Shown one piece after another: positions 1,317-61,824 of a stretch of DNA of 64,000 nucleotides. Within the stretch, counting starts at the first letter, position 1. Each line of letters opens with the position of its first letter. Source of the stretch: Sutcliffiella horikoshii (GTDB taxonomy: Bacteria > Bacillota > Bacilli > Bacillales > Bacillaceae_I); assembly GCF_002157855.1 (NCBI RefSeq), contig NZ_CP020880.1, positions 1,674,001 through 1,738,000 on the forward strand, written 5' to 3'. A program made the position numbers and the translations under genes. The notes under the pieces are model-generated. The model ran no database searches and had not been told where the DNA came from. It saw nothing but the letters and a program-made list of their open reading frames with translations.

Positions 1317-1330
1317 TAACTAATTAACCT

Positions 1331-1459
1331 AGCTGTCGATTGGAGCAATGGGCGAAGACTCCGGCGGGAGGTAGCGGTAGCTTGAGACCCCGCAACGAAG
1401 TGAGGAGGCTCAAGCACACGCCCCGCGGAAAGCGAAGCCCAGTGCGGAAATCGACAGCG
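1331..1459 (+). repeat. Structured intergenic repeat, single forward copy, inside leu operon
   Basis: A single forward-orientation copy (about 129 bp) of the repeat family described at 3583-3918. It fills most of the 183-bp gap between leuB and leuC. The ends CTGTCGATT and AATCGACAG can pair. They differ from other copies (CTGTTGATT/AATCAACAG) by a matched change on both sides. An inner TTGAG/CTCAA stem is also kept. No inverted partner copy is seen here. Confidence 0.9.
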
Positions 1460-3582: not shown

Positions 3583-3918
3583 GGTTGATTTCCGTTCCAG
3601 GCGCTTCGCTTGCCTGCGGGCGGTCCGTGAGCCTCCTCAGGCTTCGCCTTCCGGGGTCTCACCTGTCCCTTCCTCCCGCGGGCGTCTTCGCGCCTTCCAC
3701 TCAAATCAACAAGGCGACTTCATTCAGCTAAAGGTTAATCTAAAAGAGTTAACTTAAAATAAAGTAACCTATCGTACAAGTAACTTCTAGCTGTGGATTG
3801 AAGCTAATGGCGAAGACTCCTACGGGGGAGTAGCGGCAATGTTGAGACCCCGCAGGCTTGCCGAGGAGGCTCAAGGTCGCCCCGTGGAAAGCGAAGCCAT
3901 TAGCAGAAAGGAACAGCG
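3583..3918. repeat. Composite structured repeat, locus 1 (inverted copy 3583-3710, forward copy 3789-3918)
   Basis: An inverted copy runs from GGTTGATT to AATCAAC, then a spacer of about 78 bp, then a forward copy from AGCTGTGG to GAACAGCG. The inverted copy, read on the other strand, is clearly related to the forward copy. Shared blocks include GAAGAC, TGAGACCCCG, GAGGAGGCTCA and AAGCGAAG. The forward copy can pair GCTAATGGC with GCCATTAGC, where other copies have GCAAATGGC with GCCATTTGC. The spacer carries AAGGCGACTTCATT and GAGTTAACT, both recurring at other loci. The repeat and the 52-bp duplication after it fill most of the gap 3557-4290. No gene is seen there. Confidence 0.92.
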
Positions 3919-3967: not shown

Positions 3968-3994
3968 ATGAATTTATTATATTAGGTAGAACCT

Positions 3995-4098
3995 AAACAC
4001 CCGAAGCTTCGTCTGAAAAGGAAAAAATGTCTAATAGAAGCTTTCTAAACGCCCGAAGCTCTGTCTGAAGAGGAGGTAATGTCTAATAGAAGTAGTCC
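3995..4098. repeat. Two-copy direct repeat, 52-bp period
   Basis: Two adjacent copies start at 3995 and 4047. Both read CCCGAAGCT, then GTCTGAA.AGGA, then AATGTCTAATAGAAG, with scattered differences. There is no good reading frame across them. The rest of the gap up to the lipoprotein gene (4099-4277) shows nothing I can name. Confidence 0.75.
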
Positions 4099-13980: not shown

Positions 13981-13999
13981 ACGTCTTATTTTCAGCTTA

Positions 14000-14110
14000 T
14001 TTTCCAAACTGCAGATTTTATTTTCAGTTAGTGGAATTTACGAGCCGAAAAGGCAATTATATTTTCCAAACTCCATCATTTATTTTCCGTTACAGAAATA
14101 TACGAGCCGT
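14000..14110. repeat. Two-copy direct repeat, 62-bp period
   Basis: TTTTCCAAACT recurs at 14000 and 14062, and TACGAGCCG at 14039 and 14101, both exactly 62 bp apart, with TTTATTTTC between them in each copy. It occupies the first part of the gene-free stretch 13981-14375. The TTCTAC array fills most of the rest. No gene is seen. Confidence 0.72.
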
Positions 14111-18588: not shown

Positions 18589-19779
18589 TTACTCTCCTTT
18601 ATATGACAGAATCCCTTTACAGAAGGTCATTTTCACTTGCATTTCTTCATCTAAGATAACAATGTCTGCATCCTTGCCAATCGAAATGCTACCTTTTCGA
18701 TCCCATACATGAAGTCGTTTGGCTGGATTGGCTGTTGCCATTTGGATTGCTTCTTGCATCGTACAATCGGTGAATTTCTTCATGTTTCTAATAGCGTCGT
18801 TCATTTTTAGTACACTTCCAGCAAGGGTTCCATCTTCCAGAAGGGCGGTGTTATTCTCTACTATCACTTTCTGGCCACCAAGCTCGTACTCTCCATCGTC
18901 CAACCATTTAGCTCTCATGGAATCGGTTATCAATAGGATATGATCTACGCCTTTAGCAAGAAAAGTTGCTTTTACCATGGCAGGATGAACATGTATGCCG
19001 TCTGCAATCATTTCCAAATAGAGTTCAGGGTGGGCGAGGCCGGCACCAGCGACGCCTGGTTCACGGTGATGACTTCCGCGCATTCCATTAAAGAAATGAG
19101 TAATATGCTCTGCACCAGCTTCTATTGCTTTCACTACTTCTGCATATAAAGCATCGGAATGCCCGATGGAGGCGATTACTCCCGTATCGGAAAGGTGTTT
19201 GACCAACTCCAAACCATTTTTTTCTTCAGGAGCGAGAGTAACCAATTTAATATGATTGCCAGACTCGGACTGGAAATGACGAAATGTTTCTACAGATGGT
19301 TCTAAAATAAAGGCAGGTGGCTGAGCACCAGCGCGTTTTTCATTGATAAAAGGTCCTTCAAGATGCACTCCTAATACTTCGCTTCCAACATCACTCTGAT
19401 TTTGAAAAGGAATAAAGGAATTTACATTTTGTAATGCTTTTACTAGTTCCGATTTTTCTTGCGTTATGGTAGTAGCTAAAAAACTAGTGGTTCCCTCTTT
19501 TGGTAGAGTATTCGCCATATTTTTGATACAATCCGTACTTGCATCCATAACATCGGCCCCATTTAATCCGTGGATGTGTAGGTCAATAAAGCCTGGGGCG
19601 GCATAAAGCTCTTCCGATAAGTGTATTTGGGGCAGATTATTATTATTGGTGTATTCGTTTAGAGGGCCAAAATCAGCGATCTTTCCCTCTTTTATAATCA
19701 TATATCCATTTTCGATTAGTTCCTCTTCTGTCACGATCTTCATAGAGAGGAGGGCGTAGCTATTTGGTTGCAAAGCCAT
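18589..19779 (-). CDS. nagA: N-acetylglucosamine-6-phosphate deacetylase
   Basis: A 396-residue amidohydrolase-fold enzyme that removes the acetyl group from N-acetylglucosamine-6-phosphate. Metal and substrate residues are in GFIDLHIHGLNGADVMD, VHLEGPF, SIGHSDA, THFFNGM and LITDSM (catalytic Asp). It is the first gene of the nagABR operon. Its upstream region carries two NagR-type operators as an inverted pair. The genes together feed amino sugars from the cell wall or chitin into glycolysis. Confidence 0.95.
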   Translation of the reverse strand: MALQPNSYALLSMKIVTEEELIENGYMIIKEGKIADFGPLNEYTNNNNLPQIHLSEELYAAPGFIDLHIHGLNGADVMDASTDCIKNMANTLPKEGTTSFLATTITQEKSELVKALQNVNSFIPFQNQSDVGSEVLGVHLEGPFINEKRAGAQPPAFILEPSVETFRHFQSESGNHIKLVTLAPEEKNGLELVKHLSDTGVIASIGHSDALYAEVVKAIEAGAEHITHFFNGMRGSHHREPGVAGAGLAHPELYLEMIADGIHVHPAMVKATFLAKGVDHILLITDSMRAKWLDDGEYELGGQKVIVENNTALLEDGTLAGSVLKMNDAIRNMKKFTDCTMQEAIQMATANPAKRLHVWDRKGSISIGKDADIVILDEEMQVKMTFCKGILSYKGE

Positions 19780-19833
19780 GTCAAAGTCCTCTTTTCCTAC
19801 TTATTATATGTATAGCTTAGCAAAAATATGTCT

Positions 19834-19871
19834 AGTTGTATATACCAATTTACTTATTGGTATATACAACT
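19834..19871. promoter_or_regulatory. Double NagR (dre-type) operator
   Basis: AGTTGTATATACCAAT (19834-19849) and its exact reverse complement ATTGGTATATACAACT (19856-19871) face each other across 6 bases. This makes a 38-bp inverted repeat upstream of nagA. Each half resembles the known B. subtilis dre site (ATTGGTATAGACCACT, from memory). The divergent acetyltransferase gene starts 100 bases away and could also be affected. Confidence 0.85.
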
Positions 19872-19970
19872 ATAGTGACGCAAATTCCAAAATTATTCTA
19901 TCCAATTTTCTTATGAAATAATATACTATTAACAGAATAAAAGCATAGAATACTAGAAAGGTGAATCATC

Positions 19971-20477
19971 ATGAATAACTTATCCATTCAATTAAGAAAT
20001 GCTGTTATAGAAGACCTTCCCGAGATAGTTTCCATTTATAATTCCACCATTGAAAGCAGGATGGTGACGGCGGATACTTCTCCTGTCACAGTGGAGAGTA
20101 GAAAAGAATGGTTTCACAAACATAATAATGATAGACCATTAAAGGTAGTGGAACTTGATAATCAAATTTGTGCATGGATTAGTTTCCAGAACTTTTACGG
20201 TCGCCCGGCCTATCAGGCAACGGCGGAGGTAAGTATTTATCTTAGCGAAGAAACGAGAGGGAAGGGACTAGGAGCCTTATTATTAGAAAAAGCGATAAAA
20301 GAATGTCCAGCCCTTCAGATCGAGAATTTATTGGCATTTATTTTTGCACATAATGTACCAAGTATACGTTTGTTTGAAAAATATGGATTTGAAAAATGGG
20401 GATATCTTCCGGGTGTCGCAGAACTTGATTCTGTAAAAAGGGATTTGGTGATTATGGGGAGAAAAATAGTAGAGTAG
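19971..20477 (+). CDS. GNAT acetyltransferase, phosphinothricin-acetyltransferase-like
   Basis: A 168-residue GNAT protein. Its N-terminus (LRNAVIEDLPEIVSIYNSTI) and the acetyl-CoA loop (SEETRGKGLGALLLEKAI) match the Pat/YwnH group, which acetylates phosphinothricin, methionine sulfoximine or similar small amines. NLLAFIFAHNVPSIRLFEKYGFE is the usual C-terminal GNAT motif. It starts a run of three closely spaced genes (gaps of 11 and 7 bases), probably one transcript ending at the 21388 terminator. Confidence 0.84.
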   Translation: MNNLSIQLRNAVIEDLPEIVSIYNSTIESRMVTADTSPVTVESRKEWFHKHNNDRPLKVVELDNQICAWISFQNFYGRPAYQATAEVSIYLSEETRGKGLGALLLEKAIKECPALQIENLLAFIFAHNVPSIRLFEKYGFEKWGYLPGVAELDSVKRDLVIMGRKIVE

Positions 20478-21444: not shown

Positions 21445-21785
21445 GTTGATTTCCGTTCCAGGCGCTTCGCTTGCCTGCGGGCGGTCCGTGAGCCTCCTCA
21501 GGCTTCGCCTTCCGGGGTCTCACCTGTCCCTTCCTCCCGCGGGCGTCTTCGCGCCTTCCACTCCAATCAACTAGGATACTTCATTTAACTTATGGCTAAA
21601 AAAAGATACCTAACGAGTTACTGATAACCAATAACAATACTTTCACTAAATCTCTAGCTGTGGAATGGAGCAAATGGTGAAGACTCCAGCGGGGGAGTAA
21701 CGGTAGGTTGAGACCCCTGAAACGTTGTGAGGAGACTCCAGCACCGTCCCGCGGAAAGCGAAGCCATTTGCGGAAAGGAATAGCG
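21445..21785. repeat. Composite structured repeat, locus 2 (inverted 21445-21571, forward 21657-21785)
   Basis: Same layout as locus 1. The inverted copy is almost identical in sequence to that of locus 1. The forward copy has the ACGGT/ACCGT variant of the inner stem, and its outer end is GGAATAGCG. The spacer is 85 bp and starts AAGGATACTTCATT-like sequence. It fills most of the gap 21429-21921, where I see no gene. Confidence 0.92.
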
Positions 21786-28434: not shown

Positions 28435-28779
28435 GTTGATTTCCGTTCCAGACGCTTCGCTTGCCTGCGGGCGGTCCGTGAGCCTCCTCAGGCTTTGCCT
28501 TCCGGGGTCTCACCTGTCCCTTCCTCCCGCGGGCGTCTGCGCGTCTTCCACTCCAATCAACAAGGTGACTTCTTTTACTTTAGGGCTTGTGAGAATCATC
28601 TAACGGAGTTAACTGAAAAAATAGTATTATTTCGTTCTAGTAGTTTCTAGCTGTGGATTGGAGCAAATGGCGTAGACTCCAGCGGGGGAGAAACGGTAGG
28701 TTGAGACCCCTGAAGCGTTGGGAGGAGGCTCAAGCACCGTCCCGCGGAAAGCGAAGGCATTTGCGGAGAGGAACAGTGC
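28435..28779. repeat. Composite structured repeat, locus 3 (inverted 28435-28561, forward 28649-28779)
   Basis: Same layout as locus 1, starting only 14 bases after the acyl-CoA dehydrogenase stop. In the inverted copy the outer stem reads AGACGC ... GCGTCT, where locus 1 has AGGCGC ... GCGCCT, a matched change. In the forward copy ACGGTAGGTTGAG can pair with CTCAAGCACCGT. The spacer again carries AAGGTGACTTC and GAGTTAACT. No gene is seen in 28421-28858. Confidence 0.92.
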
Positions 28780-34775: not shown

Positions 34776-35057
34776 GTTGATTTCCGTTCCAGGCGCTTCG
34801 CTTGCCCGCGGGCGTCTGCGCGCCTTCCGCTCCAATCAACAAGGTGACTTCTATTACTTAAAGGTTTATGAAAAGGCATTTACTGAGTTAACTTAATAAG
34901 TAATAACATTTCTTTTTCGTAATTTTCAGCTGTTGATTGGAGCAAAAGACGAAGTCTCCTGAGGGAAATAGCGCTAGGTGGAGACCCCACAGACGTAGCC
35001 GAGGAGGCTCCAGCAGCGCCCCTAGGAAAGCGAAGCCATTTGCGGAAATCAACAGCG
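34776..35057. repeat. Composite structured repeat, locus 4, inverted copy internally deleted (34776-34840), forward copy 34928-35057
   Basis: The inverted copy is only 65 bp. It keeps GTTGATT ... AATCAAC and GGCGC ... GCGCC but lacks about 60 central bases, with the join at a CCCGCGGGC that occurs in similar form on both sides in full copies. The forward copy belongs to the same subtype as locus 5: TGGAG/CTCCA inner stem and CGCCCCTAGGAAAGCG. The spacer carries AAGGTGACTTC and GAGTTAACT. Nothing else is seen in 34764-35198. Confidence 0.9.
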
Positions 35058-42071: not shown

Positions 42072-42105
42072 AAAGACACTCTCGGTGGATGGGAGTGTCT
42101 TTTTC
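42072..42105 (+). terminator. Intrinsic terminator of the tre cluster
   Basis: AAAGACACTC and GAGTGTCTTT form a 10-bp stem followed by TT and C. Confidence 0.87.
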
Positions 42106-42114
42106 ATTCGAGCA

Positions 42115-42470
42115 GAACGAGGACAGTGTTTCAGGAATAAGGCAAAAATTGTCCTCGTACGAGTTGAACTAGGACAATGTTTTAGGATTAAGGTAAAAGA
42201 TTGTCCTCGTACGAGTTGAACGAGGACAATGTTTCAGGAATAAGGCAAAGATTGTCCTCGTACGAGTTGAACGAGGACAATGTTTTAGGATTAAGGTAAA
42301 AGATTGTCCTCGTACGAGTTGAACGAGGACAATGTTTTAGGATTAAGGTAAAAGATTGTCCTCATACGAGTTGAACGAGGACAATGTTTTAGGATTAAGG
42401 TAAAAGATTGTCCTCATACGAGTTGAACGAGGACAATGCTTCAGGAATAAGGCAAAGATTGTCCTCGTAT
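42115..42470. repeat. Seven-unit tandem array, 51-52 bp period, hairpin units
   Basis: Units begin GAACGAGGACAAT at 42115, 42166, 42218, 42269, 42321, 42373 and 42425. Each contains GAGGACAAT and its complement ATTGTCCTC about 20 bases apart, so each can fold into a 9-bp hairpin. Two internal variants exist: a 51-bp one (TTTCAGGAATAAGGCAAAG) and a 52-bp one (TTTTAGGATTAAGGTAAAAG), in the order 51-52-51-52-52-52-51. It fills the gap 42106-42571 with no gene. There are no variable spacers, so it is not CRISPR. Confidence 0.9.
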
Positions 42471-50311: not shown

Positions 50312-50326
50312 GTTATAGTGATTTAT

Positions 50327-50455
50327 AGCTGTTAATTGGAGCAAAAGGCGAAGACTCCTGCGGGGGAGTAACGGCAATGTTGAGACCCCGCAACGAAGTG
50401 AGGAGGCTCAAGGTCGCCCCGCGGAAAGCGAAGCCATTTGCGGAAATTAACAGCG
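50327..50455 (+). repeat. Structured intergenic repeat, single forward copy after fadH
   Basis: A 129-bp forward copy without an inverted partner. The outer stem reads CTGTTAATT ... AATTAACAG, again a matched change from CTGTTGATT ... AATCAACAG. GCAAAAGGC/GCCATTTGC pairs less well. It starts 16 bases after the fadH stop and is followed by a strong terminator. Confidence 0.9.
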
Positions 50456-53631: not shown

Positions 53632-53662
53632 AAAAAAGAGCGTGGAAATACGCTCTTTTTTT
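53632..53662 (+). terminator. Intrinsic terminator
   Basis: AAAAAAGAGCGT and ACGCTCTTTTTT form a perfect 12-bp stem with a 6-base loop and T run. Confidence 0.9.
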
Positions 53663-53688
53663 AGAAAGATAAGAAAGTATAAAAATCG

Positions 53689-54030
53689 GTTGATTTCCGT
53701 TCCAGGCGCTTCGCTAGCCTGCGTGCGGTCCGTGAGCCTCCTCACTCCGTTGCGGGGTCTCACCTGTCCCTTCCTCCCGCGGGCGTCTGCGCGCATTCCA
53801 CTCCAATCAACAAGGTGACTTCATTCAGCTAAGGGGCTATGAAGAGGTTTTTACTTGAGTTAACTGTTAAAGCACTAACGTATCGTTCTAGTAATCTATA
53901 GCTGTTGATTGGAGCAAAAGGCGGAGACTCCTGAGGGAGATAGCGCTTGATGGAGACCCCGCAGGCGAAGGCCGAGGAGGCTCCAGCAGCGCCCCTAGGA
54001 AAGCGAAGCCATTTGCGGAAATCAACAGCG
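53689..54030. repeat. Composite structured repeat, locus 5 (inverted 53689-53811, forward 53900-54030)
   Basis: Same layout as locus 1, directly after a terminator. The forward copy is the subtype with TGGAG/CTCCA and AGCGC/GCGCC inner pairs, shared with locus 4, and has the outer stem CTGTTGATT ... AATCAACAG. The spacer holds AAGGTGACTTCATT and GAGTTAACT. The gap 53663-54160 holds nothing else apart from a small terminator. Confidence 0.92.
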
Positions 54031-54056
54031 GTGCATAACCAAGCAACAAAACAAGG

Positions 54057-54079
54057 ACCGGGCGGTTTACCCGGTTTTT
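54057..54079 (+). terminator. Small intrinsic terminator after repeat locus 5
   Basis: ACCGGG and CCCGGT form a 6-bp stem with a 7-base loop, then TTTT. Confidence 0.6.
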
Positions 54080-55442: not shown

Positions 55443-55474
55443 CCAGGCTGTCCATCCACAGCCTGGTTTTTTTG
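55441..55474 (+). terminator. Intrinsic terminator of the ykuJ group
   Basis: AACCAGGCTG and CAGCCTGGTT form a perfect 10-bp stem with an 8-base loop and T run; it overlaps the stop codon. Confidence 0.9.
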
Positions 55475-55487
55475 TGTTTATGATCTG

Positions 55488-55820
55488 GTTGATTTCCGTT
55501 CCAGGCGCTTCGCTTGCCTGCGGGCGGTCCGTAAGCCTCCTCACTCCGTTGCGGGGTCTTACCTGTCCCTTCCTCCCGCGGGCGTCTGCACGCCTTCCAC
55601 TCCAATCAACAAGGAAACTTCATTAATATAAGGGTTATTGAGTAGCTAATAAACCTAGATAATTGAACATCATTCTTTAACGAGATTTTTAGCTGTGACT
55701 TGGAGCAAATGGCGAAGACTCCTGCGGGGGAGTAGCGGCAATGTTGAGACCCCGCAGCGAACGCGAGGAGGCTCAAGGTCGCCCCGCGGAAAGCGCAGCC
55801 ATTTGCGGAAAGGAACAGCG
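55488..55820. repeat. Composite structured repeat, locus 6 (inverted 55488-55610, forward 55691-55820)
   Basis: Same layout as locus 1. In the inverted copy GTAAG ... CTTAC replaces the GTGAG ... CTCAC of the other copies, a matched change on both sides of an inner stem. The spacer is 80 bp and less conserved. The remaining gap to ykuK (55821-56051) shows no gene I can support. Confidence 0.92.
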
Positions 55821-61811: not shown

Positions 61812-61824
61812 GTCTCTCTTTTTC
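61794..61824 (+). terminator. Intrinsic terminator of the DUF368 gene
   Basis: AAAAGAGAGAC and GTCTCTCTTTT form a perfect 11-bp stem with a 7-base loop; it overlaps the stop codon. Confidence 0.9.

Follow-up and report, generated by a model that had tools for sequence, protein, structure and literature searches.

A repeated sequence of the Sutcliffiella horikoshii chromosome, built of two inverted hairpins, is mobile and inserts as a whole unit. Wherever its left border can be read, the insert starts at the 3' end of a T-run belonging to an intrinsic terminator of the host, or a few bases from it, and the unit points with the replication fork also where the neighboring genes give no such direction. 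We hold it slightly more probable than the contrary (ca. 0.55) that this composite is a non-autonomous mobile element of ca. 340–440 bp, mobilized in trans by a single-strand route at terminator T-runs. The original prediction, made from one stretch of DNA, had spoken of a miniature element; the composite has indeed turned out to be mobile and inserted as a whole, and no unit was located in a called ORF.

Structure and abundance of the composite

The window (i.e., the whole stretch of 64,000 nucleotides that was analyzed, G000:C1:1674001-1738000 of a chromosome of 4.28 Mb) contains several copies of the unit, whose coordinates are listed in Table 1. The composite consists of a left hairpin (L, ca. 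127 nt), a spacer of ca. 80 nt and a right hairpin (R, ca. 137 nt). L and R are inverted homologues with ca. 70–75% identity, as expected from the earlier description of the halves as distant homologues, and the six loci for which a common order and orientation had been claimed all carry the composite on the plus strand (starts at 3584, 21445, 28435, 34776, 53689 and 55488). The borders given before for one unit (53689–54030) are exact as coordinates, but the conserved element extends past both of them. In the consensus over 36 units with flanks, a conserved AT-rich leader follows directly after the T-run, and the order is fixed as terminator, leader, L, spacer and R, with an own terminator and T-run after R in a minority of copies. 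The leader contains TATAAT, which resembles a -10 box. The number of units inside called ORFs was zero. Unit 53689 matched other places of its own genome with E-values down to 8e-123, which excludes chance. Other repeats of the window are seven direct repeats of 51–52 bp at 42104–42469, with GAGGACAATG-like arms and no relation to L or R, and two pairs of neighboring direct repeats at 13998–14109 and 3993–4092, with spacings of 62 bp and 52 bp.

Table 1. Coordinates of the composite units and associated features (window positions, except in the last three rows, which give chromosome positions).
Feature	Position	Strand	Basis or remark
Host intrinsic terminator and T-run, landing site of unit 53689	53632..53662	+	Sequence; same terminator without unit in 5 named relatives and G001
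Conserved AT-rich 5' leader of unit 53689	53663..53688	+	Consensus of 36 units with flanks; missing at empty sites
Left hairpin L of unit 53689	53689..53816	+	
Spacer of unit 53689, ca. 80 nt	53817..53893	+	
Right hairpin R of unit 53689, diverged inverted homologue of L	53894..54030	+	
Unit-borne terminator (hairpin and T-run), likely right border of insert 53689	54055..54079	+	Sequence, pattern, G001 empty-site match resuming at its T-run
Host terminator ahead of unit 55488	55443..55473	+	Sequence
Composite unit	55488..55820	+	Missing in L070, L071, L072 and L075; whole unit in L074
Composite unit	3584..3918	+	
Composite unit	21445..21785	+	
Composite unit	28435..28776	+	
Composite unit with ca. 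49-nt deletion inside L	34776..35057	+	L complete at orthologous place of G001 (site 1708767)
Solo R hairpin	1330..1459	+	R at same place in G001
Solo R hairpin	50321..50455	+	R at same place in G001
Units also present in G001	1531933, 1584079, 1677574, 1695437, 1702430, 1708767, 1729479, 1771461, 1795523, 1823511, 1902489		
Unit loci empty in G001	1548481, 1588603, 1727680, 1780075, 1872641, 1922235		1727680 is unit 53689
Units against replication	435651, 1065111, 1517328, 2361293		435651 between tandem leading genes, the others between convergent genes

We have searched the genome with models of R and L, scoring 150 candidates per model, so that the counts are lower bounds, and found at least 150 matches to R and at least 147 to L. 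Once the L matches overlapping an R match on the other strand had been removed, 66 of the 69 pairs of neighboring matches (within 700 nt, among the best 150 candidates per model) were L-then-R on one strand; the remaining three were one R- L+, one L- R- and one R- R-. The stretches of genome that were fetched (1.07 Mb) held at least 359 non-overlapping copies or fragments (194 R-like and 165 L-like). These included at least 78 distinct composite loci (80 rows, with two double entries), some of them with truncated halves, and beside the units there were at least 89 full solo copies of R and 52 of L. By way of comparison, 80 kb of stretches not picked for copies plus 18 kb of a second contig gave one diverged R-like copy and one R fragment. 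Among 58 full units, selected with an L-R gap of 40–110 nt, the spacer measured 72–87 nt in 50, confirming that its length of about 80 bp is kept. The two spacer motifs that had been reported for most loci are real but degenerate: AAGGTGACTTCATT was exact in 5 of the 58 and had up to two mismatches in 36, and GAGTTAACT was exact in 14 and within two mismatches in 44.

Empty sites in related genomes

The evidence of mobility is the absence of whole units at orthologous sites, from which it follows that the composite inserts as one piece. Empty sites in related strains had been named as the observation to look for, and we found them at unit 53689, at unit 55488 and at 6 of 17 loci compared with the related genome G001. 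The relatives retrieved with one protein were S. horikoshii strains and Bacillus sp. RO1, RO2 and CHD6a. Unit 53689 was missing in all five named relatives that aligned up to the site, and unit 55488 in four, with a whole L-R unit at this place in a fifth (Table 1). L073 aligned only further out at both sites, with no recognised copy there. The reverse situation was seen near window position 61824, where L070 and L074 carried L plus R or R pieces and the window none. In L072 (Bacillus sp. CHD6a), strings of L and R pieces that look nested were observed at 627–1190 and 19769–20379.

The comparison with G001, of which one protein was 93% identical to that of our genome, comprised 17 resolvable unit loci, of which 11 were occupied at the same place and 6 were empty. 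Locus 1872641 was counted once. Left out were 1495449 and 1501479, which lack an ortholog, 1790735, whose two flanks map apart from each other, 1517328 (a partial unit, in another state in G001), 1761421, with 165 nt remaining in G001, and 1838945, where G001 has 467 nt but no recognised copy. The least certain of the six empty loci is 1548481, with 269 nt of the downstream flank unaligned.

Landing site and borders

At 1588603, 1780075, 1872641, 1922235 and 1727680 the left border coincided with the end of a host terminator's T-run, and at 55488 it lay a few bases beyond. The same can be seen over the whole set of full units. A terminator-like hairpin with a T-run was present within 100 nt upstream in 46 of 58 units, compared with a mean of 3.7 and a maximum of 7 in shuffles in which the T-runs were kept, and with 17 of 58 on the other strand. 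The last T-run ended 10–23 nt before the start of the L model in 45 of the 58 (13 when counted from the other side). The median distance from the unit to the upstream stop codon on the same strand was 60 nt (gene context being taken from the ORFs called in this analysis).

The right border is more variable. Five were examined, of which one is a clean end in the unit's own terminator T-run and a second fits. The clean one, 1872641, ends in the TTTTTC of its own terminator, and directly after it come the bases found behind the host T-run in G001. At 1727680 (unit 53689) the alignment with G001 picks up again at the first T of the T-run that belongs to the unit. The right borders were less clean at 1588603 and 1780075 and could not be located at 1548481 and at 1922235, which has no terminator of its own. 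With left borders at T-run ends, T-runs on both sides of the insert would mask any target duplication. A terminator-like structure was detected downstream in 14 of 58 full units (shuffles, mean 2.7, maximum 5) and the downstream motif GGACCGGGCGG, allowing up to four substitutions, in 20 of 58. A carried landing site is therefore not general, and only a minority of the copies have an own terminator with its T-run.

These borders bear on two alternative movers. One is the resident IS1182, of which the repeat could be a MITE family, with a DDE transposase directed at hairpin tips as the mover. R copies are located inside the IS1182 element and in short elements with its inverted termini, and five near-identical IS copies lie in L or R tips with duplications of 8–9 nt. 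However, the composite starts at T-runs and has no IS1182 terminal inverted repeats at its borders, on which ground we reject this element as its mover, and only a part of the solo R copies would be accounted for; we give this origin hardly any probability. Targeting of palindromes has been recorded for some members of IS1182 (PMC5678879, citing Siguier et al.). The resident IS1182-family element (484-aa transposase, NCBIfam 358.9 bits) is found near G000:C1 2412411, 2446272, 2563926, 3550238 and 3718447 and itself holds an R hairpin near one end. Eight solo R copies, at 1129853, 1168320, 1473611, 1517149, 2200769, 3063079, 3158967 and 3203475, have IS1182-type termini on both sides as judged by eye (MITE-like), several of them in hairpin tips.

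The second alternative is retrotransposition in the manner of group IIC introns, in which a reverse transcriptase encoded by an intron would act in trans and place the RNA of the unit behind terminators. Bacterial-C introns are reported to insert directly behind rho-independent terminators and to have a strong replication-strand bias (PMC8919778), and the unit shares both features, is highly structured and ends in part of the copies in a terminator. On the other hand, the five RVT_1 matches of the genome correspond to two types of group II introns (a 442-aa frame, twice, and a 605-aa frame, three times) that lie elsewhere, and inspection by eye of their approximate 5' ends revealed no adjoining T-run. 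The unit has neither ribozyme domains nor a protein gene, no Rfam match, intron or otherwise, appeared in the window at gathering level, and neither a terminator-targeting group II intron nor a suitable reverse transcriptase was recognised in the genome. This route seems improbable to us. The five introns, at G000:C1 565948, 3259945 and 3848762 (one type) and 347694 and 3245108 (the other), are all oriented with replication, and the copy at 3259945 adjoins an L half, in a former spacer.

Orientation with respect to replication

The replichores were delimited by the genes for DnaA, DnaN and GyrB at the contig start and by a flip of the GC skew between 2.0 and 2.1 Mb. As many as 74 of the 78 composite loci are oriented with replication, compared with 859 of the 1164 genes called in these stretches (p 2e-6 in a binomial test, the gene rate being taken from stretches chosen for holding copies). 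The comparison of orientation with replication direction that had been proposed as a check gives a marked bias, which persists in settings where the genes impose no direction (33 of 36 with replication, p 2e-7): 28 of 31 units between convergent genes (p 5e-6), all three between divergent genes, and the two located among tandem genes transcribed against replication, which oppose those genes. The upstream gene is on the strand of the unit in 72 of 78 cases. In the relatives, among the matches listed, 21 of 23 rows in G001 (one of them at the contig midpoint) and 7 of 8 in G002 run with replication, assuming that these contigs have the origin at their start and the terminus of replication halfway along. 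Solo copies are less biased than units (65 of 89 R and 32 of 52 L with replication). The six loci empty in G001 are all with replication, but they are few and in one replichore.

Selection against wrongly oriented copies could yield the same bias. One alternative is a host-serving element of 3' ends, similar to a BIME, in which a strong hairpin behind the terminator would be useful and selection, not insertion, would set the orientation. BIMEs are often held to serve the host. The absence of units from called ORFs, their short distance behind same-strand stop codons, the strong conservation of structure and the 11 of 17 sites common with G001 fit such a role. Against it, G001, with 93% identity in one protein, lacks the unit at six of the 17 resolvable loci, all six of them with replication (with the reservation just given), and units between convergent genes keep their orientation, although a 3'-end function would permit either one there. 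We regard a host role as unlikely, if less so than the intron-like route, and insertion of a mobile unit in a fixed polarity as the better reading.

Folding of the two halves

Each half folds separately, over ca. 125–137 nt. Covariation was measured on alignments (A4 and A5) that were fitted to the models and are biased towards their structure, made from matches with E of at most 1e-25 in 100 of the fetched stretches. In R (126 distinct rows), 96.9% of the cells were paired and 236 cells were changed on both sides (64 in shuffles); in L (104 rows), the values were 97.2% and 86 (13 in shuffles). None of 500 shuffles reached the observed counts for either half and the slid controls collapsed. 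Compensatory pairs of the same sort appear in MAFFT alignments, e.g., R 53-108 with GC 18 and AU 18. The larger MAFFT alignments folded poorly in RNAalifold and were replaced by A4 and A5. A fold in which L pairs with R, predicted as preferable from the single sequence 53679–54040, is probably not the main one, since the covariation falls within each half.

The mismatches in pairs carry information about the strand. In R, G-T mismatches exceed A-C mismatches (81 vs. 32, p 5e-6), both in unit copies (30 vs. 11) and in solo copies (51 vs. 21), and the unpaired columns of R have no mutation bias in the direction that would favor G-T. This excess indicates that R is kept, as judged from the pattern of substitutions, as a fold of the given strand, be it RNA or single-stranded DNA. 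L has no such asymmetry (27 vs. 32).

Possible exchange among copies, and halves on their own

Within units, the divergence of L is uncorrelated with that of R (Mantel r 0.02, p 0.39) and with that of the spacer (r 0.02, p 0.36), and R and the spacer are weakly correlated (r 0.23, p 0.003). In addition, four tip variants are common to L and R. The lack of correlation between the halves and the shared tips suggest either that copies exchange parts or a star-like descent from a master. The claim that the whole unit of ca. 340 bp moves as one accordingly stands in one sense, as relatives lack entire units at the corresponding positions, and needs to be qualified in another: the halves also exist alone (the solo copies counted above), R is found inside IS1182 and its short derivatives, and the divergence of L shows no correlation with that of R.

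The same data are what favors an explanation by homologous exchange, in which terminator regions would recombine carrying the unit and gene conversion would shuffle L and R. However, the insertions have flanks that match the empty site, and recombination does not account for the replication bias. We consider it very doubtful as an explanation of the composite, on a par with the IS1182 origin.

Regarding the solo R copies with a gene downstream on the same strand, 27 of 55 were within 57 nt of the called start. They are often 27–57 nt ahead of called start codons, e.g., at G000:C1 69482, 2850735, 2940601, 3613012 and 3671989. Solo R hairpins may be leader elements of transcripts.

Proposed mechanism and candidate enzyme

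From the observed polarity, the T-run and the L-to-R strand would be located on the lagging-strand template. The fixed side of the T-run, the fixed orientation to the fork and the insertion as a whole point to single-stranded DNA of this template as the substrate. The likeliest course would be that an enzyme supplied in trans joins a single-stranded or circular copy to the T-run, similarly to the single-strand transposition of IS200/IS605, with L and R as the structures that the enzyme might recognise. IS608 and ISDra2 insert into the lagging-strand template through a single-stranded circle, according to PMC6006769. A unit ending in its own hairpin and T-run would recreate the landing site behind itself, and the pattern would need no host function.

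The only Y1_Tnp match of the genome is a RAYT-like gene (230-aa frame, NCBIfam 77.8 bits vs. a cut-off of 80). No enzyme could be linked to the unit, and the 12-kb stretch around this gene is free of L and R copies; the nearest listed R is at 4016957. Across 16 genomes of the genus the gene is mostly, not always, kept, with 87–100% identity in 11, 61–63% in two, 38–39% in two and no match in G006. It is missing in G006, G023, G029 and G030, all of which have unit matches, and it is matched in G018 (broken) and G019, both without them. In total, among the matches listed, 23 of 31 genomes have both, 2 only the RAYT-like gene, 4 only the unit and 2 neither. We therefore do not accept the RAYT as a proven mover; we see the RAYT-like Y1 transposase as a weak candidate and give an enzyme that is extinct or unknown the same likelihood.

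Relation to known repeats and origin

The composite is similar to REP, BIME and REPIN-RAYT systems in its many intergenic copies, its two inverted palindromic units with a short spacer and the presence of a single RAYT-like gene. REP palindromes serve as targets for IS, and so do those of the composite. As in REPINs, the form that moves is an inverted doublet, seen in the 66 L-then-R pairs out of 69 (best 150 candidates per model) and in the insertion of whole units. The differences are also clear. The palindromes of REPs and REPINs measure ca. 20–65 nt according to PMC3733652 and PMC6006769, and the hairpins of the unit ca. 125–137 nt. The GTAG/GTGG/CGTC tag 5' of the hairpin foot is absent from the consensus, which reads ATAATnCnG before L and TTTCTA before R. 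In REP/REPIN systems the RAYT gene is flanked by repeats, whereas here the RAYT-like gene is unflanked and does not strictly co-occur with them, and the unit, unlike these repeats, inserts at terminator T-runs.

With IS200/IS605 and their non-autonomous derivatives, the unit shares the polarity on the lagging-strand template, a target on the left side and hairpins. Those of the unit are far larger than 20–25 nt, and the genome has no TnpB domain that we could find and no Y1 other than the RAYT-like gene, so that no autonomous tnpA element sharing the ends of the unit was found. The bcr, BOX and RUP repeats differ from the unit in size, in the inverted double-hairpin plan and in terminator targeting, all of them compared by description only. 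They are, like the unit, abundant MITE-like intergenic repeats of Gram positives, often in untranslated regions (PMC3446304 for bcr1-bcr3 of Bacillus cereus, and PMC2267715 for the sizes of BOX and RUP of Streptococcus pneumoniae). Bhal-1, Bhal-2, Bcr1 and Sta-1 are among the repeats listed in the latter stem-loop survey. We have found no description of this repeat in the open literature, subscription papers being mostly outside this scope.

A resemblance was found to tsr24 of Staphylococcus aureus (RF02577). R (window 53917–54013) matches model positions 129–204 with long identical stretches, at 21.6 bits (E 0.0085 in a search of 441 bases), below the gathering score of 50, and a second unit reached 14.5 bits; in contrast to the unit, no composite plan is known for tsr24. 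In a survey of 200 genomes of the class, with strict filters and 15 candidates scored per genome, R-type hairpins (E of at most 1e-6) were detected in 41 genomes, our own included, and in 20 of 95 genera. Both halves at the spacing of the unit were seen only in G015, of the same genus, when one locus was taken from each of 17 related genomes outside the best full matches, together with 23 class-wide loci. The full-length matches, among those listed, came only from genomes of this genus. Phages had no match to the unit, and plasmids only partial ones, in eight records (Priestia, Peribacillus, Bacillus badius and Niallia) with 75–79% identity at the best place per record. The wide distribution of the R-type hairpin and the finding of the composite, among the genomes examined, in this genus only indicate that the hairpin is old and the composite probably younger. 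Together with the homology of L and R, this distribution fits an origin of the composite from two inverted copies of one hairpin, which would have been joined in that way.

Significance

We place the repeat among the MITE/BIME elements, as a variant that follows one rule for its target and one for its orientation. For many bacterial MITE-like repeats neither a mover nor a target rule is known. In the present case the sequence itself reveals the target (the terminator T-run), at least the left border, and replication as a cue for orientation that can be told apart from gene direction, which makes the single-strand hypothesis directly testable in an environmental genus. The annotated small RNA tsr24 of S. 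aureus may itself belong to a repeat family, given its resemblance to the R hairpin. More tentatively, the composite might represent a new class of miniature element, with the intrinsic terminator as landing site on lagging-strand-template DNA, whose complete form would carry a terminator at its end, rebuilding the site and sparing the transcription of the neighbors, and which would have arisen from two inverted class-wide hairpins paired in one genus of Bacilli. The position of the repeat also suggests that, in compact genomes, parasitic DNA may find a low-cost niche behind terminators.
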